Shown here in pieces: positions 41,321 through 59,048 of a stretch of 63,116 nt of DNA (position 1 is the first letter of the stretch; each line of letters opens with the position of its first letter). The stretch spans positions 1 through 63,116 of the forward strand of contig JAEUPB010000024.1 of the NCBI GenBank assembly GCA_016789955.1. The letters are read 5' to 3'. Under the pieces are notes generated by a model that was not told where the DNA came from, did no database searches, and saw only the letters and a program-made list of their open reading frames with translations. The translations under genes were made by a program, and so were the position numbers. The stretch comes from Rubrivivax sp. Its GTDB lineage: Bacteria; Pseudomonadota; Gammaproteobacteria; Burkholderiales; Burkholderiaceae_C.

Positions 41321-44300
41321 CTACCGCGCCGCGGCCACCGCGGCGGCGAGATCGGGCCATGCGGGCAGGTCGGGCGCGTAACGGCGCCGCAGCCACGCCG
41401 CGAGGTCGGCGGCCTGCCGGTCGTCCACGCTGTGGCGGAACGCCGGCATGAAGCCGAGCTCGCGCGTGGCCGGCTCGCGGATGCCGTCCATCAGCAGGCG
41501 CAGCAGGTTGTCGGGCGTGTCGGCGCGCAGCTTGCTGCTGAGCGCCAGTGGGATGTTCTGCCCCAGTTCCACCGGCGCGCGGCCTTCGGCGTGGCAGGCG
41601 CCGCAGGCGCTCTGGAAGAAGCGCTGCGTCGCGTCGGGTGGCGGCGCGGCGGCCAGGGCCCGGGCGCGGCGGGCGTCGGCTTGCGCCTGCACGGGCGCGT
41701 CGGTGGCGGCGGGCTGGAACGATGCGAGGTAGTGCGCCATCGCGCGCAGGTCGTCGTCGGGCGCGCCCTGCAGCGAGGCCACCACCTCGGCCATCGGCCC
41801 CGCCGCGGCGCCGTGGTGCGGGCTCCAGCCGCGGCGCAGGTAGGCGTACAGCGACGCTTCGGTCCACGGCAGGCCGCGCGCACCCACGGTGGTCAGCGAC
41901 GGCGCCCACCAGCCTTCGATGGGCGCGCCCGACAGCTGCTCGGTGCCGCGGCGCTCCGCGCCCAGCGCGTCGCGCGGCGTGTGACAGGCGCCGCAATGGC
42001 CGGGGCCGTTGACGAGGAACTCGCCGCGCTGCCACAGCGCCGGCTTCGTCGGCTCCTCGCTATGCGGCCCGGGCTCGAGGTGCAGCGCGTTCCACAGCGC
42101 CAGCAGCGGCCGCATGCCGAACGGGAACGGCAGCCGGCTCGCCGGCACCTCGTTCTTGGCGGCCGGCTGCGCCATCAGGTGCGCGTAGAGCGCCATCAGG
42201 TCGTCGTCGCCGATGCGCGTGAACGCGGTGTACGGGAACACCGGGTACAGCCGATGGCCGTCGCGCGAGATGCCTTCGCGCATCGCGCGCTGGAACGCGC
42301 TGAACGACCACGCGCCGATACCGGTGGCGACATCGGGCGTGAGGTTGGTGCTGAGCACGGTGCCGAACGGCGTCTCGAAGGCGCGGCCGCCGGCGTTCGG
42401 CGTGCCGCCGGGCGCCGTGTGACAGGCCGTGCAGTTGCCCAGCGCCGCGAGTTGCCGCCCGCGTTCGAGCGTGGCGGCGGTGTAGATCGACGCATCGGGC
42501 CGGCTGACCGGCGCGATCGCCGGCCGCCAGCCCAGCAGCCCGGCCACGCAGGCCAAGGCGCCCGCGACGAGCGCAGCGGCGCGGCGCCACCACGACTTCG
42601 GTCGCGGCCAAAGGGCGCCCGCAGGAGGCGGTGCATCGGCGGCGACCACCTCGGCCGCCGGCGCGGGCGCTGCCGGTGGCGGCGGCAGCGGGTTCAGCGA
42701 CGCGCGGATCACCTCCGGCGTGAACGGCGGCTCGCGAAAGCGCACGCCGGTGGCATCGAAGATGGCATTGCCGATGGCCGCGGTGCCCGGCACCGACGAC
42801 GACTCGCCCGCCCCCAGCGGTGGCTCGCCGGGCCGCGGCATCAGCACCACGTCGATCACCGGCACCTCGCGGAAGCTGAGCAGCGGGTAGCTGCCCCACT
42901 CGCGGCCGGCCACGGTGCCGCGCCCGGGGTCGAGCTGCACGACTTCCTTCAACGCACGGCTGGTGGTCTGCACCACGTTGCCGTGCACCTGGTGCTGCAC
43001 GCCGGCGGGGTTGACCATCGCCCCGGCATCGTGGCCGACGACGAGGCGCTGCACGTGCACCTCGCCGGTGACACGGTGCACCTGCACGTCGGCCACCCAG
43101 GCCGACCACGCGGCGCCGAAGCCGGGGAACTTGCTGTGGATGTAGCGCGCCCACGCCACGCCCTGGCCCTGCAGCCAGTCGCCCTGCGGGGTGCGCTGCT
43201 GCGGGGCCGTGCGCGGCACCCAGCCGGCGCGATCGGCGGTGGCCTGCAGCAGTTCCCGTGCGCGCGGGTCGTCGAGGTGGCGCAGCCGGAACGCCAGCGG
43301 GTCCTCGCCGCGCGCATGGGCCAGTTCGTCGACGAAGGTCTCGTGCGCAAAACTGTTGGGCAGCGCCGAGACCCCGCGCAGCCACGACGCGCGCAGGATC
43401 GGCGCCATGTCGTGCACCGTCACCTTCAGGTTCGGCACGCGGTACGGCGGCACCGAGGTGCGGTCGCCCATCGCGTAGGCCTGCGCGTCGGCGCGCTGCT
43501 TGCCGGTGAGCAGCAGCGCCAGCGTCGGCGACGCGTTGGACGGATAGCAGGTGTGGAAGTCCCAGCCCTGCAGCGTGCCATCGGCTGCCAGCGACCCGTC
43601 GACCTCCATCAGCTGCGCCGCGCCCTTGGGCTCCCACAGGTGCTCCTGCTCGCGCGTGAGCTGCACGCGCACCGGGCGGCCCACCGCGCGCGACAGCAGC
43701 GCGGCATCGGCGGCCACGTCGTCGGCGCCGTTGCGGCCATAGCAGCCGGCGGCCTCGACACGGATCACGTCGACGGCTGCATCGGGCAGGTCGAGCAGCT
43801 TCGCCAGGTCGGCGCGCAGCACGTGCGGGTTCTGCGTGCCGGCCCACACGGTGATCGCCGGCAAGGCTTGCGGGCCGTGCCACTGCGCCACCGCGCACGA
43901 CGGCCCGATCGACGCGTGCAGCTGGTAGGGCCACAGGTAGCGCCGCTGCAGCCGCAGGGGGGCGGCGCCATTGGCGGCGGCGGCATCGCCCGCCTCGGCC
44001 ACCACGCGAGGCGTGGCCGGGTTGTCGCGCAGGGCCTGTGCGAGCTCCTCGTTCGAGCCCATCGGCGGCATGCCGGGCCAGTCGCCCCAGGTCAGGCGCA
44101 GCGCGTGCATGGCCTGCTCCGCGTGTTCCTCGCGTTCGGTGACCACGCCGACGAAGTCGCCGCTGCGCACCACCGCGACCAGCCCGGGCACGTGGGCCAC
44201 CGACGATTCGTCCACCGCCTGGAGCGTGCAGCCGATGTGGTCGCCGTGGTCGGCACCGGCATACGGCGGGCGCACCACGCGACCATGCAGCATGCCGTCC

Positions 44301-44863
44301 AGCCGCACGTCGTGCACGAAGCTCGGCTCGCCGGTCGCCTTGGCCGGAATGTCCACGCGCGGCAGCGGTTGCCCGGCCACGCGCCACTGGTCGGAAGGTT
44401 TCAGCGTGACGGTGGGGTCGAGCGCGAGTTCGACGTGGCGCCCAGCGAGGGGGCCACCATCGGCCTGCAGCCAGGCACGCGCCTGTGCCGCCGCCTGCCG
44501 CAGGGGCACCGAGGCGATCTGCAGCGTGGCGCTGGCGATCGTCGGGCCCTGGTTGGGCACGCGCGCGGTGTCGCCGAGCAGCATCACCACGCGCTCCGGG
44601 TCGACCTCCAGTTCCTCCGCGACCAACTGGCCCAGCGCGGTACGCACGCCGGTGCCCAGGTCGACCTTGCCGCACAGGCCGTTGACACTGCCGTCGTCCC
44701 ACACCGCGAGCAGGATCTCCACGCCCTCGGCCGGGTCGCCCGGCACCATCGGCGGTTGCCCCGGGGCCGGTGGTGGTGGCGGCGGCGGGTCGCGCACGAC
44801 CAGCAGCACGCCTGGCGCGGCGTGGAAGCCGGCGCGCGTGGCGGGCGCGTTGGCGGCGCGCAT
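41321..44863 (-). CDS. nicB: Nicotinate dehydrogenase large subunit: molybdenum domain fused to tri-heme cytochrome c
   Basis: A 1180-residue protein matching P. putida NicB in plan and length. The molybdopterin part of the xanthine-oxidase family spans residues 1-725, with DLGTGVRTAL (about 69-77), EAAGCYGRNGADDV (370-383), RASWLRGVSA (491-500) and GAGESSS with catalytic Glu687. A Pro/Ala linker leads to a single transmembrane helix (about 760-778), then three CxxCH heme sites (811-815, 957-961, 1087-1091). It hydroxylates nicotinate to 6-hydroxynicotinate with electrons leaving through NicA and the hemes to the respiratory chain. The ATG shares one base with the nicA stop (TGATG). Other isoquinoline-oxidoreductase-like substrates cannot be excluded. 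Confidence 0.85.
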   Translation of the reverse strand: MRAANAPATRAGFHAAPGVLLVVRDPPPPPPPAPGQPPMVPGDPAEGVEILLAVWDDGSVNGLCGKVDLGTGVRTALGQLVAEELEVDPERVVMLLGDTARVPNQGPTIASATLQIASVPLRQAAAQARAWLQADGGPLAGRHVELALDPTVTLKPSDQWRVAGQPLPRVDIPAKATGEPSFVHDVRLDGMLHGRVVRPPYAGADHGDHIGCTLQAVDESSVAHVPGLVAVVRSGDFVGVVTEREEHAEQAMHALRLTWGDWPGMPPMGSNEELAQALRDNPATPRVVAEAGDAAAANGAAPLRLQRRYLWPYQLHASIGPSCAVAQWHGPQALPAITVWAGTQNPHVLRADLAKLLDLPDAAVDVIRVEAAGCYGRNGADDVAADAALLSRAVGRPVRVQLTREQEHLWEPKGAAQLMEVDGSLAADGTLQGWDFHTCYPSNASPTLALLLTGKQRADAQAYAMGDRTSVPPYRVPNLKVTVHDMAPILRASWLRGVSALPNSFAHETFVDELAHARGEDPLAFRLRHLDDPRARELLQATADRAGWVPRTAPQQRTPQGDWLQGQGVAWARYIHSKFPGFGAAWSAWVADVQVHRVTGEVHVQRLVVGHDAGAMVNPAGVQHQVHGNVVQTTSRALKEVVQLDPGRGTVAGREWGSYPLLSFREVPVIDVVLMPRPGEPPLGAGESSSVPGTAAIGNAIFDATGVRFREPPFTPEVIRASLNPLPPPPAAPAPAAEVVAADAPPPAGALWPRPKSWWRRAAALVAGALACVAGLLGWRPAIAPVSRPDASIYTAATLERGRQLAALGNCTACHTAPGGTPNAGGRAFETPFGTVLSTNLTPDVATGIGAWSFSAFQRAMREGISRDGHRLYPVFPYTAFTRIGDDDLMALYAHLMAQPAAKNEVPASRLPFPFGMRPLLALWNALHLEPGPHSEEPTKPALWQRGEFLVNGPGHCGACHTPRDALGAERRGTEQLSGAPIEGWWAPSLTTVGARGLPWTEASLYAYLRRGWSPHHGAAAGPMAEVVASLQGAPDDDLRAMAHYLASFQPAATDAPVQAQADARRARALAAAPPPDATQRFFQSACGACHAEGRAPVELGQNIPLALSSKLRADTPDNLLRLLMDGIREPATRELGFMPAFRHSVDDRQAADLAAWLRRRYAPDLPAWPDLAAAVAAAR

Positions 44864-45363
44864 CACGCGGCGCCGGTCGATGCGGCGGCCTGCATCGCGC
44901 GGGCCGCGCGGCGCACGGCGTCCAGGATCTCCACGTGCGCGCCGCAGCGGCACAGGTTGTGCGAGAGCGCCTCGCGCACCTGGTCGTCGGTGGGCGCGGG
45001 CACGCGCCGCAGCAGCGCCACCGTGGCCATCACCATGCCGTTGAGGCAATAGCCGCATTGCGCGGCCTGTGCGTCGATGAACGCCTGCTGCACCGGGTGG
45101 GGCGCGTCGCGCGTGCCCAGGCCTTCGAGCGTGGTGATCGCGCGGCCGGCCACGCCATGCGCGGGCACCAGACAGGCGCGCGCGACGAGCCCGTCGACGA
45201 GCACCGTGCACGCCCCGCACTGGCCCAGGCCGCAGCCGTACTTCGGCCCGTTCAGGCCGCAATCGTTGCGCAGCACGTGCAGCAGCGTGGCCTCGCGCGC
45301 CACCGGGGCGGCGAACGGCGCGCCGTTCACCGTCAGTTCGAGCAGCGGCACCGCGGGCGGCAT
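44863..45363 (-). CDS. nicA: Nicotinate dehydrogenase small subunit, two [2Fe-2S] clusters
   Basis: A 166-residue electron-transfer subunit of the xanthine-oxidase family. The plant-type cluster is bound by Cys44, 49, 52 and 64 (GCGLGQCGACTVLVDG...C), the second by Cys103, 106, 138 and 140 (CGYC ... CRC). It passes electrons from the molybdenum centre to the hemes of NicB. As in other two-subunit enzymes of this type there is no FAD subunit gene. It lies 28 bases after the cytosolic nicotinamidase gene and is coupled to nicB, so substrate supply and oxidation are cotranscribed. Confidence 0.92.
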   Translation of the reverse strand: MPPAVPLLELTVNGAPFAAPVAREATLLHVLRNDCGLNGPKYGCGLGQCGACTVLVDGLVARACLVPAHGVAGRAITTLEGLGTRDAPHPVQQAFIDAQAAQCGYCLNGMVMATVALLRRVPAPTDDQVREALSHNLCRCGAHVEILDAVRRAARAMQAAASTGAA

Positions 45364-45391: not shown

Positions 45392-46045
45392 TCAGCGGCG
45401 CGCCACCGCCGACGAGTCGATGCGCTGCACCCCCGTCGCGGCCATCGCCTGCCAGGCGGCCGCCAGCGAGCCGTTGAGATCGATCGCCCGACAGGCGTCC
45501 TCGATCACCCAGGTCTCGAAGCCGGCGCTGCGCGCGTCCTGCGCGGTGTAGGCCACGCAGAAGTCGGTGGCCAGGCCCGTGACCGCGATGCGCGTGATGC
45601 CGTGCGCACGCAGCCAGGCGGCCAGCCCGGTGGTGGTGCGGCCGTCGGCCTCGACGAAGGCCGAGTAGCTGTCGACGCCCGCGTGCCAGCCCTTGCGCAC
45701 GATGAGCTGCGCGGTGGGCAGCTGCAACCCATCGTGCAGCGCGGCGCCGCGCGTGCCCTGCACGCAGTGGTCGGGCCACAGCACCTGTGGACCGTAGGGC
45801 ATCGTGGTCGTCTCGAAAGGGCTGCGGCCCGCATGGCTGCTGGCGAACGACGCGTGGCCCGCGGGGTGCCAGTCCTGCGTGATGACGATCAGCCCGAAGG
45901 CGCCCGCCAGCGCGTTGATCACCGGCACCACGGCCTCGCCCTCCGGCACGGCGAGGGCGCCGCCGCTGCAGAAGTCGTTCTGCACGTCGACGACGATCAT
46001 CGCCGTGTCGGCGCCCGGGGTCAGCGCGGGTGTCAGCCCTGTCAT
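45392..46045 (-). CDS. pncA: Nicotinamidase (cytosolic)
   Basis: A 217-residue isochorismatase-superfamily amidase that hydrolyses nicotinamide to nicotinate and ammonia. The catalytic triad is visible: Asp20 in VVDVQNDFC, Lys in IVRKGWHAG, and Cys in GLATDFCVAYTAQDA. The metal site is DWHPAGHASFASSH and the substrate loop WPDHCVQGT is nicotinamidase-specific. No signal peptide. It precedes nicA on the same strand, giving nicotinate next to nicotinate dehydrogenase. It may also serve NAD salvage. It is clearly a paralogue of the gene at 46222-46971. Confidence 0.93.
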   Translation of the reverse strand: MTGLTPALTPGADTAMIVVDVQNDFCSGGALAVPEGEAVVPVINALAGAFGLIVITQDWHPAGHASFASSHAGRSPFETTTMPYGPQVLWPDHCVQGTRGAALHDGLQLPTAQLIVRKGWHAGVDSYSAFVEADGRTTTGLAAWLRAHGITRIAVTGLATDFCVAYTAQDARSAGFETWVIEDACRAIDLNGSLAAAWQAMAATGVQRIDSSAVARR

Positions 46046-46221: not shown

Positions 46222-46971
46222 TCAGGCGGTGGCGAGGTCGCCCGACTGGATGCGCTTGCAGCCGGCCTTCTCCATCGCCTTCCACGCCGCGGCCAGCGAG
46301 CCGTTGAGGTCGATCGCGCGGCAGGCGTCCTCGATCACGTAGACGCCGAAGCCGGCCTTGCGGGCGTCCTGCGCCGTCCAGCTGACGCAGAAGTCGGTGG
46401 CCAGACCGGTGACGAACACCGTCTTGATGCCGCGCGCCTTCAGGTAGCCGGCCAGGCCCGTGACGGTCTTGCCGTCGGCTTCCATGAACGCCGAGTAGCT
46501 GTCGACGCCCTTGTTGTAGCCCTTGCGGATGACGAGCTGCGCGGTGGGCAGCTTCAGGTCCTTGTGCAGCGAGGCGTCGTCGGTGCCCTGCACGCAGTGG
46601 TCGGGCCACAGCACCTGGTTGCCGTACTTCAGCATGATCGAGTCGAAGGGCTTCTTGCCGGCATGTGCGCTGGCGAACGACGCGTGCCCGGGCGTGTGCC
46701 AGTCCTGCGTGACGACGATGCTGGCGAAGGCCGGCGCGATGCGGTTGATGACCGGCACGACCTGCTCGCCGTCCTTCACCGGCAGCGTGCCGCCGGTGAC
46801 GAAGCAGTTCTGCACGTCGACGACGATCAGCGCCGCATCCGCTCCCGGCTTGACCTTGCCGCCGCCCCCGCCGTGGCTGGCGGCGTGGGCGCCCCAGATC
46901 CAGCCGGCACCGGTGCCGGCGGTGGCCGTGGCGGCCAGCGTGGTGACGAACTGACGACGGGTGCTGCTCAT
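46222..46971 (-). CDS. Nicotinamidase with Tat signal peptide (predicted periplasmic)
   Basis: A 249-residue paralogue of the cytosolic enzyme, carrying a twin-arginine leader: STRRQFV, hydrophobic AATATAGTGAGWIWG, cleavage after AHA (residue 30), then a Gly-rich spacer. The mature part retains Asp52 (VDVQNCF), Asp90-His92-His96 as metal ligands, Lys150 and Cys195 (ATDFCV), so it should be active. Known nicotinamidases of NAD salvage are usually cytosolic; export would let nicotinamide be cut outside the inner membrane. Its neighbours are the second pncA (176-bp gap) and livF upstream. The gap carries no recognisable gene. Confidence 0.88.
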   Translation of the reverse strand: MSSTRRQFVTTLAATATAGTGAGWIWGAHAASHGGGGGKVKPGADAALIVVDVQNCFVTGGTLPVKDGEQVVPVINRIAPAFASIVVTQDWHTPGHASFASAHAGKKPFDSIMLKYGNQVLWPDHCVQGTDDASLHKDLKLPTAQLVIRKGYNKGVDSYSAFMEADGKTVTGLAGYLKARGIKTVFVTGLATDFCVSWTAQDARKAGFGVYVIEDACRAIDLNGSLAAAWKAMEKAGCKRIQSGDLATA

Positions 46972-47008: not shown

Positions 47009-47746
47009 TCACATCGACAGGTAGGCTCGCCGCACCTCGTCGTCTGCGGCCAGCTCGGACATCGTGCCCTGGTAGCGGATCTGCCCCTTCTCGAGCACGT
47101 AGGCGCGGTCGGAGACGAGTTCGGCGAAGTGCAGGTTCTGCTCGGACAGCAGGATGCTGACGCCTGCCGCCTTGAGCTCCAGGATCATGTGCGCCATGCC
47201 TTCGACGATGACCGGCGCCACGCCTTCGCTGGGTTCGTCGAGCAGCACGAGCGTGGGGTTGCCCATCAGCGTGCGCGCGACGGTGAGCATCTGCTGCTCG
47301 CCGCCGCTCATGCGGCCGCCGGGGCGGTTGCGCATCTCGCCGAGGTTGGGGAAGAGCTGGAACAGCCGCTCGGGCGTCCATGGCGGAATCATTCGACCGT
47401 CCGGGCCCTTTCGCGGCGGCTGCTTGCCGACTTCCAGGTTCTCCATCACCGTGAGGTCGGTGAAGATGCGCCGGTCCTCCGGCACGTAGCCCAGGCCCAT
47501 CGCCGCGATGCGATGCGGCTCGCCGCGCGAGATGTCCTGCCCGAGGAAGGCGACGCTGCCGCTGCGGCGCGCGACCATGCCCATGATCGACTTCAGCGTG
47601 GTCGACTTGCCGGCGCCGTTGCGGCCCATCAGCGCGACGACCTCGCCGCGTTTCACCTGCAGCGTGATGTCGAACAGGATGTGCGCGGCGCCGTACCAGG
47701 CCTGCAGGGTGCGGACGTCGAGGAGGATGTCGGCTGCCGAACTCAT
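47009..47746 (-). CDS. livF: Branched-chain-type ABC importer ATPase LivF
   Basis: A 245-residue ATPase. Walker A GRNGAGKST (41-49), signature MSGGEQQM, Walker B LVLLDEPSEGVAP and the family-specific LGYVPEDRRIF are present; EGVAP marks LivF rather than LivG. ATG 47746 fits the family start; the open frame extends upstream into repeat-rich DNA. Unlike usual liv operons it is separated from livG by 541 bp of non-coding DNA, and it sits 37 bases upstream of the Tat nicotinamidase gene. In this context the importer probably carries a pyridine carboxylate or similar ring acid. Confidence 0.92.
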   Translation of the reverse strand: MSSAADILLDVRTLQAWYGAAHILFDITLQVKRGEVVALMGRNGAGKSTTLKSIMGMVARRSGSVAFLGQDISRGEPHRIAAMGLGYVPEDRRIFTDLTVMENLEVGKQPPRKGPDGRMIPPWTPERLFQLFPNLGEMRNRPGGRMSGGEQQMLTVARTLMGNPTLVLLDEPSEGVAPVIVEGMAHMILELKAAGVSILLSEQNLHFAELVSDRAYVLEKGQIRYQGTMSELAADDEVRRAYLSM

Positions 47747-48287
47747 CGTTCTCGCTGGCCGTCGTTCAGGGCCGCTGGCGCGTGCGCGGGGCTCCGCTGC
47801 AGGGCGGGCGGACCGGGGGGTCGTTCTCCGGGCCATCTCCGGGGCGACGACTTCTGTTCGCCGAGGGTTCCTCCTGAACACCGGTCCAGCGCGGGCTGCG
47901 ACTTCTCAGTCCGGAATGGGCCCTGCGCCCGACCCCCCGATCCACCCACCCGAGTGGCGGCGAGGCGCGTCGTTCGCGGGAACTGAGGGGTTGGCCGGCA
48001 GGCCCGAGTGGCGCATGCGGCGAGGGGCGCCCCGCGCGAGCGGCAGTCTGCTTCCGCAGCCGCAGGGCGGCGGTGGACCCTGCAGGCGCAGGGCCCATTC
48101 CAGGTGCCAACGATGGGTGGCACCGACCGGCGGTGTTGATGGAGAGCCTGGTGGAGCCTCGAAACCGGTCGACCTGGAGCGTGGCCCGGAGATCGCAGGG
48201 TCCGCCGTCGACCTGCCGCCGAGGCGGTGGCGCATGCGCCATCCCACGGAGAGTCGACATACCAAGCCAGCGGATGAACGAGGCCGC
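47747..48287. repeat. 541-bp repeat-rich non-coding region between livG and livF
   Basis: No credible gene: the open frames on both strands have no domain and no ribosome site. Structure seen: a perfect 17-bp inverted repeat (GGAATGGGCCCTGCGCC at 47913-47929 and its complement at 48085-48101); CCCGAGTGGCG twice (47950-47960 and 48003-48013); GTGGCGCATGCG twice (48008-48019, 48227-48238), the second inside a perfect 14-bp palindrome TGGCGCATGCGCCA (48228-48241); GTCGACCTG twice (about 48168 and 48207). It resembles mosaic intergenic repeats of Burkholderiales genomes, which I recall but could not check. Confidence 0.6.
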
Positions 48288-49088
48288 TCACGCCGCCCCC
48301 ACCGCCGCGGAAGCAACCGCCCCCGGCCCCCGCCGCTCGAACGTCTTGCCGCTGCCGAAGTAGACCTCCTGCACCTTCGGGTGGTCGCGGATCTCGGCCG
48401 CGGTGCCGCCGGCGATCAGGCGGCCGCGCGCCAGCACGATGAGCCGGTCGGCGTGCGCGAACACCACGTCCATGCTGTGCTCGGTGAACAGCACCGCGGT
48501 GCCGCGTTCCTTCACGATGCGGCGCGTCAGCTCCATCAGCTCGTTGCGCTCCTTGGGTGCCATGCCGGCGGTGGGCTCGTCCATCAAGAGCAGCTTCGGG
48601 TCGTTGGCCAGCGCGATGGCGAGTTCCACGCGCTTCACGTCGCCGTAGGCCAGCACGCTGCAAGGGCGCTGCGCCTGCTCGGCCATGCCCACCTGTGCCA
48701 GCAGCGCCAGCGCCTGCTCGCGCTTGTGGGCGCCGGTGCGGCGCCATGGGGCGTAGATCAGGTGGTCGTGCGACAGCAGAGCCATCTGCACGTTCTCGAT
48801 CACCGTCAGCGACGAGAACGTCTCTGCGATCTGGAAGGTGCGGCCCACGCCGAGGCGGCAGATCTGGCGCGGCTTCAGGCCGACCAGCTCGCGGCCGGCG
48901 AGCGTGATCGAGCCGGCATCGGCCGGCAGCTGGCCGTTGACCATGTTGAAGGTCGTCGACTTGCCGGCGCCGTTGGGCCCGATCAGCGCCAGCAGTTCGC
49001 CGGCGCCGACCTCGAAGTCGATGCCGTCGACGGCCTTCACGCCGCCGAAGAACTTCGTCAGCCCGCGCACCTGCAGCAGCGTCGTCAC
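48288..49088 (-). CDS. livG: Branched-chain-type ABC importer ATPase LivG
   Basis: A 266-residue ATPase. It shows FFGGVKAVDGIDFEV, Walker A GPNGAGKST, the GRTFQIAETFSSLTVIENV segment typical of LivG, Walker B LLLMDEPTAGM and switch His TEHSMDVVF. The signature motif is VLAYGDVKRVELA, a usual LivG variant of LSGGQ. The GTG start overlaps the stop of the fused permease by 4 bases (GTGA). The C-terminal extension after FGSGKTF is Ala-rich and not conserved. Confidence 0.92.
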   Translation of the reverse strand: MTTLLQVRGLTKFFGGVKAVDGIDFEVGAGELLALIGPNGAGKSTTFNMVNGQLPADAGSITLAGRELVGLKPRQICRLGVGRTFQIAETFSSLTVIENVQMALLSHDHLIYAPWRRTGAHKREQALALLAQVGMAEQAQRPCSVLAYGDVKRVELAIALANDPKLLLMDEPTAGMAPKERNELMELTRRIVKERGTAVLFTEHSMDVVFAHADRLIVLARGRLIAGGTAAEIRDHPKVQEVYFGSGKTFERRGPGAVASAAVGAA

Positions 49089-51081: not shown

Positions 51082-52278
51082 TCAGTTCGCCGCGCGCAGC
51101 TTCTTCACCTCGTCGGCCGAGGGCAGGTACTTCGCGCCGTCGAGGTAGCGGTAGTCGACCATCACGCCCTTGCCGCCCTCGTTCTTCGTGCGGCCGACGA
51201 AGGCGCCCATCGTCGACTGGTTGTCCTCGGGGCGGTAGGTGATGCGGCCGAACGGCGTGTCGACGGCCAGCCCGCGGAAGGCCGCGACCATCTTCTCGCT
51301 GTCGGTGCTGCCGGCCTTGGCCACGCCGGCGGCCACCGACTTGATCAGCGCGTAGCCCACCACCGAGCCCAGGCGCGGGTAGTCGTTGAACTTCTTCTGG
51401 TACGCCGCGAGGAAGGCCTTGTGCTCGTTGGTGTTGATGCCGTTCCACGGGTATCCGGTGACGATCCAGCCGTTGGGCGTCTCGTCCTTCAGCGGGTCGA
51501 GGTACTCGGGCTCGCCGGTCAGCAGGCTCACCACCTCGCGCCCGGTGAACAGGCCCCGCGTGTTGCCCTCGCGCACGAACTTCGACAGGTCGGCGCCGAA
51601 CAGCACGTTGAACACGGCGTCGGGCTTGGCGTCGATCAGCGCCTGCACCACGGGCCCGGCTTCCAGCTTGCCCAGCGGCGGCGCCTGCTCGCCGACGAAC
51701 TCCACGTCGGGCTGTGCCTTCTTCAGCAGCTCCTTGAAGCTCGCCGCGGCCGACTGTCCGTACTCGTAGTTCGGGTAGACGACGGCCCAGCGCTTCTTCT
51801 TCAGCTTGGCCGCCTCGGGCACCAGCATCGCCACCTGCATGTAGGTGGAGGGGCGCAGCCGGTAGGTGTAGGCGTTGCCGTTGGTCCAGACGATCTTGTC
51901 GGTGAGCGGCTCGCCGGCGAGGAAGAAGGTCTTCTTCTGCTTGGCGAAGTCGGTCAGCGCCAGGCCGATGTGCGACAGGAAGGTGCCGGTCAGCACGTCG
52001 ATCTTCTCGCGCGACAGCAGCTCCTCGGCCACGCGCACGGCGTCGCCGGGGTTGGCGTTGTCGTCGCGGGTGATCAGCTCGAGCTTGCGCCCGCCGAGCA
52101 GGCCGCCGGCGGCGTTGACCTCGTCGACCGCGAGCTCCATGCCCTTCTTGTAGGGCTCGAGGAACGCGGGCTGCGCCTTGTAGCTGTTGACTTCGCCGAT
52201 CTTGATCGGGGCCTGGGCCTGTGCGGCCAGCGCCACGGCGCCCAGGGCGGCGGCGAAGAGTCGGGTCGTGATCGTCAC
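51082..52278 (-). CDS. livJ: Branched-chain-type ABC importer substrate-binding protein
   Basis: A 398-residue periplasmic type 1 binding protein. The signal peptide is LFAAALGAVALAAQAQA; the mature part begins PIKIGEVNSYKAQPAFLEPYKKGMELAVDEVNAAGGLLGGRKLELITRDD, typical of the LivJ/AmiC-like family. Relatives bind amino acids, amides, urea or aromatic acids. Here the gene sits between AA_synth genes and the permease in a pyridine-degradation cluster, so a pyridine carboxylate or breakdown product is a plausible ligand, by inference only. GGAGAT precedes the start. Confidence 0.92.
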   Translation of the reverse strand: MTITTRLFAAALGAVALAAQAQAPIKIGEVNSYKAQPAFLEPYKKGMELAVDEVNAAGGLLGGRKLELITRDDNANPGDAVRVAEELLSREKIDVLTGTFLSHIGLALTDFAKQKKTFFLAGEPLTDKIVWTNGNAYTYRLRPSTYMQVAMLVPEAAKLKKKRWAVVYPNYEYGQSAAASFKELLKKAQPDVEFVGEQAPPLGKLEAGPVVQALIDAKPDAVFNVLFGADLSKFVREGNTRGLFTGREVVSLLTGEPEYLDPLKDETPNGWIVTGYPWNGINTNEHKAFLAAYQKKFNDYPRLGSVVGYALIKSVAAGVAKAGSTDSEKMVAAFRGLAVDTPFGRITYRPEDNQSTMGAFVGRTKNEGGKGVMVDYRYLDGAKYLPSADEVKKLRAAN

Positions 52279-52337: not shown

Positions 52338-52916
52338 TCAGCGCAATCCGTCCTGTCCCTTGATCTCGGCGACCTGCAGGCCGCCGATGCGCGGCAAGGG
52401 GCGGCCGCTGTCGGTCACGACCACGGCCACGACGATCTCGCGGGCACGGGGCGCGTCGGCGATGCGGGCTTCCATCGCGTCGAAGTGGCTGCGCACGAAG
52501 GCGGCATCCTTGTGGCCCAGCGGCACGTCCACCGCGGTGCCCACGCCGCCCTGCTTCTTGGCCGAAGGCACCAGGGCCGCGCCCTTGCTGACGGCCGCGC
52601 GCAGCGGCGCGCCGAGCTTGGGGTGCAGGATCGCCGCGGCGTGCTCGAGCTCGCCGGCCTCGCCGACGATCGCCGCCTTGCCGTAGCTGTGCGCCTGTTC
52701 CGGCGCGATGCCCAGCGCCTGCACGCAGCGCTGGCCGAGCAGCCCGCCGAGTTCCTCGCCGATGGCGATCAGCTCGTCGAGGTTCTCGACGTAGCGGCCT
52801 GCGCAGGGGTTCTCGATCACCGCCATCGCCAGCGCCTTGCGGGTCGGGGGCTCGACGGCCTTGTCCATCTCAAGGTGGATCTCGTCGATCTGGACGACGA
52901 GCTTGCGGATCTTCAT
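52338..52916 (-). CDS. AA_synth (amino acid synthesis) family protein, copy 1
   Basis: A 192-residue cytosolic protein of the AA_synth family (PF06684), no established enzymatic activity. It begins MKIRKLVVQIDEIHLEMDK and has the family segments ENPCAGRYVENL, AHSYGKAAIVGEAGELEHAAAIL and a C-terminal SHFDAMEARI-DAPRAREIVVAV stretch. It is a paralogue of the next gene upstream (52948-53592). I use ATG 52916, where homology to the paralogue starts; upstream codons overlap that gene. The conserved place next to nicotinate genes suggests a role in pyridine-ring catabolism, not amino-acid synthesis. Confidence 0.82.
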   Translation of the reverse strand: MKIRKLVVQIDEIHLEMDKAVEPPTRKALAMAVIENPCAGRYVENLDELIAIGEELGGLLGQRCVQALGIAPEQAHSYGKAAIVGEAGELEHAAAILHPKLGAPLRAAVSKGAALVPSAKKQGGVGTAVDVPLGHKDAAFVRSHFDAMEARIADAPRAREIVVAVVVTDSGRPLPRIGGLQVAEIKGQDGLR

Positions 52917-52947
52917 GGTCAACCCTGTCCTTCGATGCGAGCGGCGT

Positions 52948-53592
52948 TCAACGCTGCCCATCCCACACGGCGATGTCGGCCGCCTTGAGCCCGCCCACGC
53001 GGGCATGGATGCGCGAACCGGTGCTCATGGCGAGCACGACCACCATCTCGTGCGAGCGCGGGGCATCGGGGATGCGGAACTCGAAGGCGTCGAAGTGGCT
53101 GCGGACGTACGACGCGTTGATGTTCGTCAGCGGCACGTCGAGCGTGGCGCCCGGGCCGCCGACCTTCTTCGTCGAGGGCACGATGGCCAGCGCGTTGCCG
53201 CTCTGGGCCTTCTTCCCCTCTGGCGCCTGGCCCTTGGCGTAGGCCGCCCGGTCGCCCTTCCAGCCCAGCAGTTCGCGCATCGCGTAGCCGCCGGGCACGT
53301 GCCACAGCGCGCCATGCTCGAGTTCCCCGGCCTCGCCGATGATCGCGCCCTTGCCGTAGCCCTGGATCGCGTCGGCCGGCACCGCCATCGCGGCGAGCAA
53401 CTGCTGGGCCAGGCGCAGGCCCAGTGGCTGCAGTGCATCCATCATCGGCATCAGATCCTCGACGTAGCGACCGGCGTACGGGTTCTTCAGCACCGCGCCG
53501 ATCGCCCCGCGCTTGAGCGGCTGCGCGGCCACCGGGCCACCCTCGTGGAAGATGTCTTCGAGCTGCGTGACGATGCGGCGGATCTCGATCAT
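52948..53592 (-). CDS. AA_synth family protein, copy 2
   Basis: A 214-residue paralogue of the previous gene, slightly longer by an insertion around residues 95-125 (YAMRELLGWKGDRAAYAKGQ). It shares IEIRRIVTQLEDIFHEGG, KNPYAGRYVEDL, YGKGAIIGEAGELEHGALWH and NASYVRSHFDAFEFRIPDAPRSHEMVVVLA. The conserved Glu-Leu-Glu-His in both copies could be a metal or catalytic site, but that is inference. Tandem copies suggest a heteromer. It begins 30 bases after the UPF0280 gene on the same strand, within one operon. GTACCCCCC precedes ATG; no strong ribosome site. Confidence 0.85.
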   Translation of the reverse strand: MIEIRRIVTQLEDIFHEGGPVAAQPLKRGAIGAVLKNPYAGRYVEDLMPMMDALQPLGLRLAQQLLAAMAVPADAIQGYGKGAIIGEAGELEHGALWHVPGGYAMRELLGWKGDRAAYAKGQAPEGKKAQSGNALAIVPSTKKVGGPGATLDVPLTNINASYVRSHFDAFEFRIPDAPRSHEMVVVLAMSTGSRIHARVGGLKAADIAVWDGQR

Positions 53593-53622
53593 GGGGGGTA
53601 CCTCGGTGCGGGAGCGCGTGGG

Positions 53623-54483
53623 TCAGGCGGCGAGGGGAAGGTGGGCGGAGTCGCCGGCGAGCGTGAGGCACCGGCCCTGGCAGACCAGTGCCGCGTCGTG
53701 CACGAGCCCGAGCGCGTGCAACTCGCGTGCCACGCGCAGGCCCCGCGCCAGCGCCTGCTCCACTTGCGCGGCGGGCAGCGTCGGCACGTCGACGGTGACG
53801 AGCCGATCGCCGAGGTCGGAGTCGTCCTTCAGGGTCGATGCCGGCGCGCGGCGGATGCGCACGTCGTCGACGTTCACGGCGTTGGCGATCACCGTTGCGG
53901 CGGCGTCGGCCCTGCTCGCTGTGGCGGCCAGCACCGTGACGCAGTCGGCGATGCCCAGCGAATGGCTGCGGCCGCGCCAGCCGCTGGTGGCGACGCCGCG
54001 CACCGGATCGGTGTGCTGCACCGCGAAGCGGCCGTCGAGCGCGGTGCGGCGGCGCGCGATGTCGGCCACGAGCCCGACGCGCACCGACTCGCCCTCGGCC
54101 AGGTGCAGCGCGATGTCGCCGCCGTTGTTGATCCAGGCGCGGCGGACGCCGGCTGCGCGGTAGCAGCCGACCAGCTCCTCGGCCACCGATCCGGCCACGG
54201 CGGCCATCGGCGTGATGAAGTCGGCGGGCATCGCGGCGCAGGCGTGCCACATGCGGCGGGCCATCGGGCCCCGCAGCGGGCACGGGTCACCGGCGGCCAC
54301 GGGGCGCTTCAGCTGCGGCAGCTCGGCGACCAGCTCCTGCAGGATCGTCGAGTAGCGCCGCCAGGCGCGCTCGTGCGCGGCGTCGACGGCCTGCTCGTCG
54401 CCGTCGGCGCCGATGACGAGCTCGATCGGGCCGTGCACCCAGTGCCAGCGGCGGCCATCGAGCGGCGTGCGTTGCGGACCCAT
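53623..54483 (-). CDS. UPF0280 family protein (ApbE-like fold)
   Basis: A 286-residue protein of the UPF0280 family, which I recall as structurally related to the FAD:protein FMN transferase ApbE. It shows MPADFITPMAAVAGSVAEELV, RRAWINNGGDIALHL and the segment SGWRGRSHSLGIADCVTVLAATASRADAAATVIANAVN, the last resembling the ApbE motif in which Asp and Thr hold metal and flavin. It starts 20 bases after the Fe-S reductase gene. Since 6-hydroxynicotinate reductase of E. barkeri is reported to carry covalently bound flavin, this protein might attach it; that is a hypothesis. Confidence 0.82.
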   Translation of the reverse strand: MGPQRTPLDGRRWHWVHGPIELVIGADGDEQAVDAAHERAWRRYSTILQELVAELPQLKRPVAAGDPCPLRGPMARRMWHACAAMPADFITPMAAVAGSVAEELVGCYRAAGVRRAWINNGGDIALHLAEGESVRVGLVADIARRRTALDGRFAVQHTDPVRGVATSGWRGRSHSLGIADCVTVLAATASRADAAATVIANAVNVDDVRIRRAPASTLKDDSDLGDRLVTVDVPTLPAAQVEQALARGLRVARELHALGLVHDAALVCQGRCLTLAGDSAHLPLAA

Positions 54484-54502: not shown

Positions 54503-56104
54503 TCAGCCGAGCATCGGCGGTGCGCCGATCGGCCAGGGGTTGGGATCGGGGTGCTGGCCCCAGCGTCGCGCGGTGGGGGCGCCGTCGTGATGCCAGGCGC
54601 CGCTGGCCAGCACCTGCTGCAGCGTGCGCACGTGGTCCATGTGGCCGCCGAGCGCTCGGTAGTCGTCGGCGCGCATCGTGAACTCGATGGGCGCAACGAT
54701 GGCCGGCGTGGGCACGGTGCCGAAGCTGCGGTCGGGCATGCGCAGCACGTCGGACATCATCGTGATGCCGCCGCCCGGCCACACGTAGGCCGGCGCGCCG
54801 CCGCAGGTGACGTTGACGAGCAGCCGCTTGATCATGCGGGTGAGCAGCACCGGGTTCTCGGTGACGCCCGCGCGCAGGCTGCCGCCGGCACCACCGAGGA
54901 ACAGCACCGAGGTCAGCGACGGTTCGCAGTTCTCGCCGATGCGCGCGACGACCTGCGCCACCTCTGGCGGCATAGGCTGCTCGCGCGGCACGAGCGCGTC
55001 GTCGAGCACGTACCAGGCGGCGTGCTCGCCGGTGGTGGAGGTCATCAGCAGCCGCAGGCCCGGCCGCGCCACGTCGGGATCCCAGCCCTCGATGATCGAC
55101 AGCGGGTCGACGAGGTCGGTGCCGCCCCAGCCGGTGCCCGGGTTGGCCACCTGGAAGTACCGCCCCGGCGTGGACTTGCGGCCACGGATCTTCAGCCCCG
55201 ATGCCGGCATGTCCAGGCAGCGGCCGGCCTGGTGCTCGGTGAGCACGCCGGTGATGTGGTCGTCGACCACCACCACCTCGTCGGCGCGGCCCCAGAGCTG
55301 CTTCGCGAAGATGCCGATGGTGGCCGAGCCGCAGCCGACGCGCATGCGCTGCTCGCGCACGCCGTTGACGATGGGCGCCTGCCCGGCCTGCACGACGAGC
55401 TGCGAGCCGCCGTCGATCGACAGTTCCACCGCTTCCTTGTTGCCGAGCGCGGCCATCATGTCGCAGGTGATGCGGCCTTCCTTCTTGCTGCCGCCGGTGA
55501 GGTGGTGCACGCCGCCCAGCGACAGCATCTGCGAGCCGTACTCGGCGGTGGTGACGTGCCCCACCACCTCGCCGCGGCAGCGCACGTTGGCCTGCTCGGG
55601 GCCGAGCCAGCGGTCGGTGTCGATCTTCAGCTTGAAGCTGCAGTAGCTGAAGATGCCTTCGGTGACGACGGTGATCATGTCGACGCCGTCGTGCTCGGAC
55701 TGCACGATGAACGGCGCCGGCTTGTAGTCAGGGTAGGTCGTGGAGGCGCCGACGCCGGTGACGAACACCTCGTCGCCGCGCAGCAGGCCGCCGGAGGCGT
55801 CGCCGTCGGCCGGGGCCACGGGCTCGTGGGTGTCGGGGGCGATGAACGGCACCACGGCACCGTCGCCGGATTCGAGCGTGCGGCGCAGCAGCAGCACCGG
55901 GTCGAGCCTCACCAGCACCCCCGCGTGATTGGCGTAGCGGTCGCAGGCGCCGGCCTTGCCCGGGCTGATCTGGCACAGAACCGGGCAGGCGTTGCACTCG
56001 ATCTTGCCGGCGGCCATGCGCTCGTTGCGCGGGCGGGCGCGCTCGAGCACCTGCGGCTCGGGCGCCGCCTCGGAAAGGCCGTCGGTCTTGGTGTGCTCGG
56101 TCAT
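54503..56104 (-). CDS. hnr: 6-hydroxynicotinate reductase-like iron-sulfur protein
   Basis: A 533-residue protein with an N-terminal cluster motif CNACPVLC-x9-C (Cys37, 40, 44, 54), followed by a long mixed alpha/beta part with further cysteines (RCRGE, ITCDMM, VGCGSATIG, ENCEPS, VTCGGAP). I assign it to the 6-hydroxynicotinate reductase group, which reduces 6-hydroxynicotinate to 1,4,5,6-tetrahydro-6-oxonicotinate using a low-potential donor. The call rests on remembered similarity plus neighbours: divergent ferredoxin-NADP reductase, enamidase, nicotinate dehydrogenase. ATG 56104 gives a normal start; an upstream ATG at 56158 is possible but closer to the operator. It heads the long minus-strand operon. 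Confidence 0.75.
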   Translation of the reverse strand: MTEHTKTDGLSEAAPEPQVLERARPRNERMAAGKIECNACPVLCQISPGKAGACDRYANHAGVLVRLDPVLLLRRTLESGDGAVVPFIAPDTHEPVAPADGDASGGLLRGDEVFVTGVGASTTYPDYKPAPFIVQSEHDGVDMITVVTEGIFSYCSFKLKIDTDRWLGPEQANVRCRGEVVGHVTTAEYGSQMLSLGGVHHLTGGSKKEGRITCDMMAALGNKEAVELSIDGGSQLVVQAGQAPIVNGVREQRMRVGCGSATIGIFAKQLWGRADEVVVVDDHITGVLTEHQAGRCLDMPASGLKIRGRKSTPGRYFQVANPGTGWGGTDLVDPLSIIEGWDPDVARPGLRLLMTSTTGEHAAWYVLDDALVPREQPMPPEVAQVVARIGENCEPSLTSVLFLGGAGGSLRAGVTENPVLLTRMIKRLLVNVTCGGAPAYVWPGGGITMMSDVLRMPDRSFGTVPTPAIVAPIEFTMRADDYRALGGHMDHVRTLQQVLASGAWHHDGAPTARRWGQHPDPNPWPIGAPPMLG

Positions 56105-56169: not shown

Positions 56170-56191
56170 TGATGTTGTGAACACTACATCA
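56170..56191. promoter_or_regulatory. Likely TetR operator in the divergent hnr/fpr promoter region
   Basis: Arms TGATGTTGTG (56170-56179) and CACTACATCA (56182-56191) flank a central AA; 9 of 10 positions pair, giving a near-perfect 22-bp palindrome in the only AT-rich spot of the 165-bp region between the divergent genes. Size and symmetry fit a TetR-type dimer site, and a tetR gene is the second gene to the right. No second copy was noticed elsewhere in the cluster. Confidence 0.7.
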
Positions 56192-56269: not shown

Positions 56270-57079
56270 ATGACCACCAAGTCCGCCGCGGCGCCTGCCG
56301 CGCCGTCGTCGAAGTTCCACCACGAGCGGGTTCTCAGCGTCCACCACTGGACCGACCGGCTGTTCAGCTTCACCACCACGCGCGACATGTCGCTGCGCTT
56401 CGCCAACGGCCACTTCACGATGATCGGCCTCGTGGTGGACGGCAAGCCGCTGCTGCGCGCTTACAGCATCGCCAGCGCCAACCACGAGGACCACCTCGAG
56501 TTCCTCAGCATCAAGGTGCACAACGGCCCGCTGACGTCGCGGCTGCAGCACATCCGGCCGGGCGACTCGCTGGTGGTGGGCCGCAAGCCCACCGGTACGC
56601 TGGTCGTCGACTACCTGCGTCCGGGCCGGCGGCTGTACCTGCTGGCCACCGGCACCGGCCTGGCGCCGTTCCTGGCCATCGTGCGGGACCCCGAGGTGTA
56701 CGAGCGCTACGAGCAGATCGTGCTGGTGCACGGCGTGCGGCAGAAGGACGAACTGGCCTACCACGACATGCTCACCGAGCACCTGCCGAGCCACGAGTAC
56801 CTGGGCGAGCTGGTGCGCGAGAAGCTGCGCTACGTGCCCACCGTCACGCGCGAGCCGTACCGCCGCATGATGCGCATCCCGCAGCTCATCCGCAGCGGCG
56901 CGTTGGCCACGGAGCTGCAGCTGCCGGAGATGAATGCCGCCGACGACCGCGTGATGATCTGCGGCAGCCCGGCGATGCTGCGCGAGCTGAAAGACCTGCT
57001 CGAGCAGCGCGGCTTCGTCGAAGGCAGCACCACGGCGCCGGGCGACTACGTCGTCGAACGCGCGTTCGTCGAGCAGTAG
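56270..57079 (+). CDS. fpr: Ferredoxin--NADP reductase (bacterial FPR type)
   Basis: A 269-residue flavoprotein that shuttles electrons between NADPH and ferredoxin or flavodoxin. FAD binding: LRAYSIASAN (RxYS); NADP binding: LLATGTGLAPFLAI and VMICGSPAML; the C-terminus VVERAFVEQ is the subclass signature with the terminal aromatic replaced by a short tail. I chose ATG 56270, where GGAGGAG stands 3-9 bases upstream. The longer frame from 56177 would run over the operator. It is divergent from the reductase and likely supplies it with low-potential electrons through a ferredoxin encoded elsewhere. Confidence 0.93.
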   Translation: MTTKSAAAPAAPSSKFHHERVLSVHHWTDRLFSFTTTRDMSLRFANGHFTMIGLVVDGKPLLRAYSIASANHEDHLEFLSIKVHNGPLTSRLQHIRPGDSLVVGRKPTGTLVVDYLRPGRRLYLLATGTGLAPFLAIVRDPEVYERYEQIVLVHGVRQKDELAYHDMLTEHLPSHEYLGELVREKLRYVPTVTREPYRRMMRIPQLIRSGALATELQLPEMNAADDRVMICGSPAMLRELKDLLEQRGFVEGSTTAPGDYVVERAFVEQ

Positions 57080-57099: not shown

Positions 57100-57825
57100 A
57101 TGCCGGCCCGCAAGGCACCCGCCGCGCGCACGGCGCCCCGCACGGCGGCCGGCGGCACCGCGGCGGGCCGGCGCATCGGCGTGCGCGAGCAGTCGGCCAT
57201 CGCCACGCGCGAGAGCATCCTGAAGGCGGCGTACAAGGTGTTCGCCAAGCACGGGTATGCGGGCGGGCGGGTCGAGCAGATCTCGCGCGCGGCGAAGTCG
57301 TACGACCGCATGATCTACTACTACTTCGGCAGCAAGGAAGGACTCTTCGTCGCGGTGATCGAGGAGGCCTACCGGCGCTTCAACGAGGCGGAGTCGGCGT
57401 TGGCGCTGGACCTGTCGCGGCCGGCCGAGGCGCTGCGCGAAGTGATCGGCTTCATCTGGCGCTACTACCAGCGCAACCCCGAGTTCATCACGCTGCTGAA
57501 CAACGAGAACCTGCACGGCGGGCGGCACATCTCGCGCTCGCTGCGGGCCCGGGAGTATTCGTCGCCGGCCATCGGTATCCTTGCGCAGGTGCTTCAAAGC
57601 GGTGCGGCGGCCGGGCTCTTCCGCAAGGACCTCCGCGCCCGCGACCTCTACCTGATGATGGCCGCCCTGGGCTACTTCTACCTTTCCAACCGCCACACGC
57701 TCTCGGCCTTCCTCGGCGAGGACCTCGAGGCGCCCGAGGCGCTGGCGCACTGGGAAGCCTTCATCGTCGACGCCGTGCAACGTACGGTGTCGGCGTCGCC
57801 GGCGGGCCGGGCCGGCGCCCGCTGA
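57100..57825 (+). CDS. TetR-family transcriptional regulator
   Basis: A 241-residue repressor. After a basic Ala-rich leader the HTH is TRESILKAAYKVFAKHGYAGGRVEQISRAAKSYDRMIYYYFGSKEGLF (about residues 36-83), followed by the helical effector domain with RNPEFITLLNNENLHGG, typical of the TetR_C_33-like group. It starts 20 bases after fpr and 26 bases before the enamidase gene, so it is cotranscribed with both and probably autoregulated through the 56170-56191 palindrome. The likely inducer is nicotinate or 6-hydroxynicotinate (inference). Confidence 0.92.
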   Translation: MPARKAPAARTAPRTAAGGTAAGRRIGVREQSAIATRESILKAAYKVFAKHGYAGGRVEQISRAAKSYDRMIYYYFGSKEGLFVAVIEEAYRRFNEAESALALDLSRPAEALREVIGFIWRYYQRNPEFITLLNNENLHGGRHISRSLRAREYSSPAIGILAQVLQSGAAAGLFRKDLRARDLYLMMAALGYFYLSNRHTLSAFLGEDLEAPEALAHWEAFIVDAVQRTVSASPAGRAGAR

Positions 57826-57851: not shown

Positions 57852-59048
57852 ATGGCCGAAGTCGCCGCCACCACCACCGCGGGCAAGGTCGTCCTGAAGA
57901 ACATCGGCCTGCTGCTGTCGGGCGACGTCGACCGGCCGATCCTCGACGCCGACACCATCGTCTGCGACCGCGGCCGCATCGTGGCCGTCGGCCGCGAGGC
58001 CGAATGCGACACCTCGGCGCCCGACACGCTCATCGACGTGCGCGGCACGACCGTCGCGCCGGGCCTGATCGACAGCCACGTGCACCCGGTGTTCGGCGAC
58101 TGGACGCCGCGCCAGAGCCAGCTCAACTGGATCGACTCCACGCTGCACGGCGGCGTGACCACGATGATCTCCGCCGGCGAGGTGCACCTGCCCGGGCGAC
58201 CGAAGGACATCGTCGGGCTGAAGGCGTTGGCGATCACCGCGCAGCGGGCCTTCGATGCGTTCCGGCCCGGCGGCATGAAGGTGCTGGCGGGCGCGCCGGT
58301 GATCGAGAAGGGCATGGTCGAGAGCGACTTCGCCGAGCTCGCCGCGGCCGGCGTGAAGCTGCTGGGCGAGATCGGCCTCGGCTCGGTGAAGGCCGGCGAC
58401 GAGGCGCAGCGCATGGTGGCGTGGGCGCGCAAGCACGGCATCCAGAGCACGATCCACACCGGCGGGCCGTCGATCCCGGGTTCGGGCCTGATCGACAAGG
58501 ACGTGGTGCTCGAGGCCGATGCCGACGTCATCGGCCACATCAACGGCGGGCACACGTCGCTGCCCGAGGCGCACGTGTGCGAGCTGTGCGAGAAGAGCAG
58601 CCGGGCGATCGAGATCGTGCACAACGGCAACGAGCGGGTGGCGATCGCCGCGGCGAAGGTGGCGCTGCAGCTCAAGTGCCCGCACCGCGTGATCCTGGGC
58701 ACCGACGGGCCCGCCGGCTCGGGCGTGCAGCCGCTGGGCATCCTTCGCATGGTGGCGATGCTGTCGAGCCTGGCCGACATCCCGGCCGAGCTGGTGTTCT
58801 GCTTCGCCACCGGCAACACCGCGCGGCTGCGCGACCTGGACTGCGGACTGATCGAGCCCGGCCGCGCCGCCGACTTCGTGTTCATGGACCGCGCGCAGCA
58901 CAGTGCCGGCCGCACGCTGCTCGACAGCGTGCGCCTGGGCGACCTGCCCGGCGTGGGCATGGTGATGATCGACGGCCTCGTGCGCTGCGGCCGCAGCCGC
59001 AACACGCCACCGGCCACCGAGGTGCCGGTGGTCGTGCAGGGTCACTGA
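57852..59048 (+). CDS. ena: Enamidase-like amidohydrolase
   Basis: A 398-residue amidohydrolase-superfamily enzyme. Metal ligands fit a binuclear site: His76 and His78 in DSHVHP, Glu173 in LGEIGLGS, His202 in IHTGG, His229 in GHINGG and Asp285 in GTDGPAGSG. In E. barkeri enamidase opens 1,4,5,6-tetrahydro-6-oxonicotinate to 2-formylglutarate and ammonia with an Fe-Zn site. The whole pattern and the cluster support that call over dihydroorotase- or imidazolonepropionase-like alternatives. CAGGAGC precedes the ATG. Its end overlaps by 7 bases the convergent PIN gene. Confidence 0.85.
   Translation: MAEVAATTTAGKVVLKNIGLLLSGDVDRPILDADTIVCDRGRIVAVGREAECDTSAPDTLIDVRGTTVAPGLIDSHVHPVFGDWTPRQSQLNWIDSTLHGGVTTMISAGEVHLPGRPKDIVGLKALAITAQRAFDAFRPGGMKVLAGAPVIEKGMVESDFAELAAAGVKLLGEIGLGSVKAGDEAQRMVAWARKHGIQSTIHTGGPSIPGSGLIDKDVVLEADADVIGHINGGHTSLPEAHVCELCEKSSRAIEIVHNGNERVAIAAAKVALQLKCPHRVILGTDGPAGSGVQPLGILRMVAMLSSLADIPAELVFCFATGNTARLRDLDCGLIEPGRAADFVFMDRAQHSAGRTLLDSVRLGDLPGVGMVMIDGLVRCGRSRNTPPATEVPVVVQGH

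Follow-up and report, generated by a model that had tools for sequence, protein, structure and literature searches.

A probable Azorhizobium-type nicotinate degradation island in a Rubrivivax contig, with candidate roles for its PF06684 and UPF0280 proteins

We analysed contig JAEUPB010000024.1 of Rubrivivax sp. (assembly GCA_016789955.1) over its whole length of 63,116 nucleotides, hereafter the window (contig C90 in our numbering, from an assembly of 116 contigs that is 79.6% complete). Its right-hand part, between an IclR-like gene and rpsL-rpsG-fusA, holds a gene island that we read with good confidence, full mechanism included, as an Azorhizobium-type island for the catabolism of nicotinamide and nicotinate, hosted by a betaproteobacterium. 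The route is a known one, to which this work adds a new host record, a proposed variant and roles for three genes that can be tested. An original prediction, made from the DNA letters, had named most genes of the island, and translations, Pfam and NCBIfam recovered all of these where it had placed them or close by. It overlooked three genes at 52338–54483, two encoding PF06684 proteins and one a UPF0280 protein. The argument turns on the following genes:

52338–52916, minus strand: PF06684 protein AAS2 (Pfam AA_synth, 5.8e-71; 2qtp, E=2.5e-84)
52948–53592, minus strand: PF06684 protein AAS1, a paralogue of AAS2 according to trees (Pfam AA_synth, 8.4e-70)
53623–54483, minus strand: UPF0280 protein with an ApbE fold, candidate flavin transferase for Hnr (NF003322, 382 bits against a cut-off of 290)
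54503–56104, minus strand: Hnr, a 6-hydroxynicotinate reductase-type Fe-S protein (CxxCPVxC...GAC, further invariant cysteines, named relatives)
57852–59048, plus strand: enamidase, predicted to open and deaminate the ring of tetrahydro-6-oxonicotinate (2vun, E=2.9e-108, residues 11–390)

In the mechanism that we infer, the predictions comprise each catalytic step in this host, what the importer carries, and what AAS1, AAS2 and UPF0280 do. Nicotinamidases would convert nicotinamide to nicotinate, and a NicAB-type dehydrogenase would convert nicotinate to 6-hydroxynicotinate, passing electrons via its haems to respiration. Hnr would reduce 6-hydroxynicotinate to 1,4,5,6-tetrahydro-6-oxonicotinate with NADPH electrons delivered by a reductase and a ferredoxin, and the enamidase would open the ring and release ammonia to give 2-formylglutarate. 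The steps from nicotinate to 2-formylglutarate were already part of the original prediction, and the series as a whole is the best reading, given the family membership of enamidase and Hnr, the synteny and the NicAB-type architecture. The next step, on 2-formylglutarate or its enamine, would fall to one or both PF06684 proteins, AAS2 above all, and would most likely be a decarboxylation to glutarate semialdehyde, whose conversion to glutarate and glutaryl-CoA would be encoded elsewhere in the genome. The UPF0280 protein would most likely attach the covalent flavin of Hnr, and a TetR regulator would control the divergent hnr/fnr promoter.

Gene content, homology, the fold of the UPF0280 model and co-occurrence were observed directly. 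The combination of enzymes, first presented as an oddity, turned out to be a widespread cluster of a known kind, which recurs through Burkholderiales; passages of PMC3511419 describe the same nicotinate route in Alphaproteobacteria in 2012 and propose a glutarate route. The best 80 of 587 hnr relatives in genome contigs, each taken with a stretch of 20 kb or less around hnr, belong to Acidovorax, Variovorax, Polaromonas, Paraburkholderia and similar bacteria, a few being "uncultured", and mostly keep the same gene order. Because the same genes recur around hnr in these loci (upf in 79, aas2 in 75, aas1 in 71, tetR in 70, ena in 68, nicA in 63 and nicB in 56), their grouping is more than chance; several of the absences fall at contig ends (e.g. 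L060 and L081; labels of this form, and those in G, are ours for loci and genomes). When the other neighbours were clustered, no further enzyme appeared in more than 19 of the 80 loci. More broadly, hnr was found in nine of 60 genomes of the window's family, in 26 of 299 genomes of its phylum (27 matched, the weak G205 being set aside) and in 57 of 290 genomes sampled from the alphaproteobacterial class (61 matched; the weak G401, G471, G540 and G594 were excluded). It also lies on plasmids (26 records, e.g. NZ_CP081117.1 and AP017627.1, many from Sulfitobacter and Rhizobium), typed as non-mobilizable in 23 cases. Among viral contigs, 32 pattern matches included no true relative of hnr.

By synteny and the curated names of its plasmid relatives, the 54503–56104 protein is a member of the family annotated as 6-hydroxynicotinate reductase. 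Those relatives, 58–76% identical, bear the product name "6-hydroxynicotinate reductase" in 17 of the 26 records; three read "hypothetical protein" and six have no feature or no annotation. The cysteines sought as Fe-S ligands (C55, C58, C62, C72, C276 and C411) are invariant in 13 and in 46 sequences, and the relatives begin at a conserved MTEHTK, in agreement with the start proposed originally. No Pfam or NCBIfam model matched Hnr, none of its three matches among PDB sequences was credible (best E 0.88), and its AlphaFold2 (AF2) model, with a predicted local distance difference test score (pLDDT) of 63.8, was too poor for a structure search. The link to the Hnr of Eubacterium barkeri is indirect, which weakens the assignment: it passes through the homologue of Bradyrhizobiaceae SG-6C, given as 42% identical to the E. 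barkeri protein in passages of PMC3511419.

The 57852–59048 amidohydrolase groups with the E. barkeri enamidase, 2vun, as originally supposed; the next PDB sequence stands at 3.3e-8, and catalysis is predicted. Its H76 and H78 (HVH76-78), E173, H202, H229 and D285, which we take to be metal ligands, align to identical residues in 2vun.

AAS1 and AAS2 score above the Pfam cut-off of PF06684 and keep Glu90, His93 and Arg176, the conserved cavity residues of BB2672 according to passages of PMC2954203; structures of BB2672 and SPO0826 are reported there, the gene of the latter adjoining Liv-type transport genes. Charged residues E89, E91, H92, R106, R142, R172 and R176 are common to AAS1, AAS2 and the trigonelline-type PF06684 clade. 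The solved relative of AAS2, 2qtp, has 194 amino acids and is presumably SPO0826. The window's genome has a third PF06684 gene (L192:3475, contig C33); its neighbours there are Bug-type receptors and a flavoprotein hydroxylase-like gene.

Of the 299 genomes, 49 have PF06684; these include 25 of the 26 that carry hnr. Within hnr genomes, trees place the AAS2 clade with the enamidase: it is present in all 14 enamidase-positive genomes of this first set and in none of the 12 enamidase-negative ones, and a second set, with 52 hnr genomes, gives 23 of 23 against two of 29 (G403 and G480). Both sets together give 37/37 against 2/41 (Fisher's P for 37/0 vs 2/39 = 6e-20, kinship ignored; 78 genomes from 32 families). 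Enamidase was scored at ≥60% identity in the first set (14 of 26 genomes) and at ≥67% in the second (23 of 52), G421 and G542 counting as negative despite 41% identical paralogues. All PF06684 places listed for the 41 enamidase-negative genomes were placed in the tree; in the second-set tree, one Burkholderiales sequence in six was kept, and a short match (L067) was left out. AAS1, as a 56-leaf clade, is found in 20 of the 37 enamidase-positive and 23 of the 41 enamidase-negative genomes. In G181 and G229, enamidase and both PF06684 genes share one locus away from hnr, a placement that ties them to each other and not to hnr.

AAS2 would act on 2-formylglutarate, probably by decarboxylating it, which makes it a candidate for the step after ring opening; the original prediction had seen no gene for the use of 2-formylglutarate, yet the overlooked PF06684 pair is the best candidate for it. 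A parallel comes from PF06684 loci distant from hnr: of 34 such loci, a chosen subset of all PF06684 places, 15 contain a luciferase-like cluster and 19 an aldehyde dehydrogenase cluster. The gene order of L189 (PF06684, alpha/beta hydrolase, flavin reductase, luciferase-like oxygenase, aldehyde dehydrogenase) is, we assume, the layout of trigonelline degradation, whose hydrolase frees a formyl-acid-type product. If this product is 2-formylsuccinate, as seems plausible, the chemistry shared by the two pathways would be the loss of CO2 from a 2-formyl acid. The likeness of the trigonelline (tgn) module lies in a PF06684 protein beside a hydrolase and an aldehyde dehydrogenase, the difference in ring cleavage by a luciferase-type oxygenase and in a PF06684 clade of its own.

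Several points weigh against decarboxylation by AAS2. The co-occurrence tests take no account of phylogeny. If the AAS2 clade is drawn one node deeper (60 leaves, support 0.76), it reaches eight of the 41 enamidase-negative genomes, and two nodes deeper nine. PF06684 is also found in aromatic-degradation contexts, and HcdD, a relative, was without effect in its authors' hands (PMC7913881). Finally, PF06684 is absent from seven of the 41 enamidase-negative hnr genomes (G193, G408, G481, G506, G535, G542 and G605) and is thus not needed wherever tetrahydro-6-oxonicotinate is made; a link with enamidase explains this better than a general role in 2-formylglutarate conversion would, unless the decarboxylation proceeds spontaneously or through another enzyme. 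A tautomerase or enamine hydrolase coupled to enamidase is an alternative candidate activity for AAS2. In that account, which we hold to be possible though doubtful, the AAS proteins would be RidA-like enamine/imine hydrolases or keto-enol tautomerases that finish the deamination of 2-(aminomethylene)glutarate, and not 2-formylglutarate decarboxylases. The strict coupling of AAS2 to enamidase and not to hnr speaks for it, as do enamidase relatives that adjoin PF06684 genes elsewhere (at 37–42% identity in L287, L308, L309 and L310, and at 306–314 bits in L194 and L197); however, passages of PMC9304392 report that the E. barkeri enamidase carries out hydrolysis and deamination alone, and the homologue TgnF works at the semialdehyde stage, stimulating succinic semialdehyde oxidation in the trigonelline pathway (PMC7913881). 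The same six loci, which combine an enamidase relative with other PF06684 genes and have no hnr within the stretch, are probably further ring-opening pathways.

The UPF0280 protein exceeds its cut-off in exactly the 26 of 299 genomes with full hnr, where it adjoins that gene. Its AF2 model (pLDDT 91.6) matches ApbE/Ftp over most of the protein (Foldseek and VIA). On the strength of this flavin-transferase fold in the model and of the strict co-occurrence, we regard UPF0280 as probably the flavinylation partner of Hnr, attaching its covalent flavin; in E. barkeri, Hnr carries a covalently bound flavin. Two observations count against this: the Foldseek template modelling scores to ApbE are modest (0.37–0.50), and the ApbE-like SAT motif of Hnr is not conserved, so no flavin site was assigned. 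Attachment at the GSAT stretch was rejected: among 46 sequences, the residue at T280 is threonine in 23 and alanine in the other 23. A profile search of solved structures returned 2o34 alone, with ApbE not matched, and Pfam assigned no family. UPF0280 could instead be a flavin/nucleotide-binding subunit or chaperone of Hnr, which we consider unlikely: the ApbE-type catalytic histidine has no evident counterpart in the UPF0280 alignment, and sub-cut-off homologues occur in archaea (control search), whereas the modelled fold matches flavinyl transferases over most of its length and the invariant A195-D196..A198-A199 with near-invariant T200 resemble ADAxAT, which we take to be an ApbE motif. The open-licence literature searched yielded no mention of UPF0280.

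The enamidase-negative genomes point to a variant of the route. A hydantoinase subunit, HyuA (>500 bits), lies 0.6–7.6 kb from hnr in 26 of the 41 enamidase-negative genomes, these 26 representing 14 families, against 0 of 33 enamidase-positive genomes examined (this count omits G000, G020, G181 and G339, and three others were seen for ~2 kb on one side only). Where no less than 6 kb was available to each side of hnr, the figures are 20/31 against 0/27 (P=8e-8, kinship ignored). One enamidase-positive genome, G550, gave a weak match (312 bits); near hnr, HyuA was found in none of the 80 Burkholderiales loci, one weak match (L123) apart, and the window itself has none. Pfam identifies HyuA as Hydantoinase_A and HyuB, which accompanies it in many cases, as Hydantoinase_B (examples of HyuA are L229:10342-12465 and L227:17362-19188). 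Since HyuA is often near hnr where enamidase is missing, this suggests that HyuAB would be a second ring-opening enzyme, acting on tetrahydro-6-oxonicotinate in enamidase-less hnr genomes.

The remainder of the island comprises:

41321–44863, minus strand: NicB-type molybdopterin hydroxylase large subunit with a C-terminal multihaem cytochrome c (Pfam MoCoBD_1/2, Cytochrom_C, CBB3; three CXXCH)
44863–45363, minus strand: NicA-type small subunit (Fer2 and Fer2_2, two [2Fe-2S] domains)
45392–46045, minus strand: nicotinamidase, no signal peptide seen (NF008623, 208.3 bits, cut-off 174)
46222–46971, minus strand: nicotinamidase with a signal resembling those of twin-arginine translocation (Tat) (NF008623, 182.5 bits, cut-off 174; N-terminus MSSTRRQFVTTLAA)
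47009–47746, minus strand: LivF-type ATPase of an importer (translation; found again in 63 of 80 loci)
48288–49088, minus strand: LivG-type ATPase of the importer (translation; recurs in related loci)
49085–50968, minus strand: fused LivH-LivM permease (translation; recurs in related loci)
51082–52278, minus strand: periplasmic substrate-binding protein of the importer (translation; recurs in related loci)
56173–56188, no strand: probable TetR operator at the divergent hnr/fnr promoter (TGTTG-N6-CTACA, one mismatch from TGTAG-N6-CTACA)
56270–57079, plus strand: ferredoxin-NADP reductase-like flavoprotein, fnr (FAD_binding_6/NAD_binding_1; NF008178, 153 bits, below the cut-off of 390)
57100–57825, plus strand: TetR-family regulator (translation; beside hnr/ena in 70 of 80 loci)

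The NicAB pair has the expected layout, a [2Fe-2S] small subunit and a molybdenum large subunit with c-type cytochromes, and its NicB-type protein would be a nicotinate dehydrogenase that feeds electrons to the respiratory chain. Matches to NicB at E≤1e-80 occur in five of 237 genomes of the class, among them G109, whose cluster resembles that of P. putida (FAD monooxygenase, alpha/beta hydrolase, EutA-like and isochorismatase-like proteins) and whose large subunit is 41% identical over residues 193–1172. The hnr-linked NicB sequences form one clade (support 0.999), the attachment point of G109 NicB having a support of just 0.18–0.24. Many alphaproteobacterial hnr loci (L233, L245, L162, L166) carry a different molybdenum hydroxylase, an FAD subunit plus a fused [2Fe-2S]-Mo subunit, in place of haem-linked NicAB.

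NF008623 is the curated NCBIfam model for nicotinamidase/pyrazinamidase. The twin-arginine-like signal of the second enzyme, judged by eye, makes this protein probably periplasmic, and nicotinamide may thus lose its amide group outside the cytoplasm; in 32 of 80 related loci, the best match was to the query from this gene, pncA2. The Liv-type importer and its binding protein together span 47009–52278 on the minus strand. A pyridine carboxylate other than nicotinate, or a lactam, is improbable as the true substrate: the substrates of the cluster are deduced from homology, and PF06684 and enamidase relatives also occur in other contexts, but two nicotinamidases exceed curated cut-offs within the island, the homology to 2vun is close, and both nicotinate and 6-hydroxynicotinate support growth of SG-6C, which has a corresponding cluster (PMC3511419).

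The 56270–57079 flavoprotein is the probable electron source for Hnr via a ferredoxin. Some relatives (L044, L045) have a 7Fe/4Fe-type ferredoxin between fnr and hnr, whose cluster is present in 11 of 80 loci (e.g. L112:9404-9787); the window has no ferredoxin gene in that gap. Upstream of hnr, 32 of 64 relatives have a perfect copy of the inverted repeat TGTAG-N6-CTACA, and 60 have it with at most one mismatch (the other 16 of the 80 loci were excluded because no MTE start was recognised in them, and the motif itself comes from the loci in which it was counted); over their full 1.22 Mb, the loci hold 34 exact TGTAG/CTACA copies with gaps of 5–9. The copy at 56173–56188 is likely the TetR operator. 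A version with N7 spacing and longer arms was discarded, with three matches in the window for 2.92 expected and none at hnr.

Compared with known systems, the island shares the first three steps, Hnr, the importer and conserved unknown proteins with the clusters of the aerobes Azorhizobium caulinodans ORS571, Bradyrhizobium, Rhodopseudomonas palustris HaA2 and Bradyrhizobiaceae SG-6C, as passages of PMC3511419 describe them; it differs in its betaproteobacterial host and in including two nicotinamidases and a ferredoxin-NADP reductase. With the nicotinate fermentation cluster of E. barkeri it shares an Hnr-type reductase and an enamidase, whereas it has haem-linked NicAB and no 2-formylglutarate reductase in the island. 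There, as Alhapel and others reportedly found in 2006, a Se-containing four-subunit dehydrogenase starts the pathway and 2-formylglutarate is then reduced. With the P. putida-type nic cluster it shares the NicAB architecture, but the NicC/NicX/NicD/NicE/NicF-like genes of G109 are not in the island. The absence of NicC, NicX, NicD and NicF, part of the original prediction, holds within the island, whose genes were read for it; no genome-wide search was made.

These strands can be joined, tentatively and with the balance somewhat against the whole, into a broader proposal: PF06684 proteins would be decarboxylases of 2-formyl-carboxylic acids (2-formylglutarate from nicotinate, 2-formylsuccinate from trigonelline), UPF0280 a cytosolic flavin transferase of ApbE fold dedicated to Hnr, and ATP-dependent HyuAB the basis of a third form of the pathway in about half of hnr proteobacteria. 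For the aerobic reductive route of nicotinate, the open-licence literature searched names no genes for the steps that come after the ring is opened. If the proposal is true, two protein families of unknown function would gain roles and the gap from ring opening to glutarate would be filled. The co-occurrence patterns predict a second ring-opening enzyme and single out particular small, soluble proteins open to direct assay, one of them with a solved close relative (2qtp). A nicotinate island with a Liv-type importer would also explain why PF06684 genes are found beside so-called branched-chain amino-acid transporters (PMC2954203).

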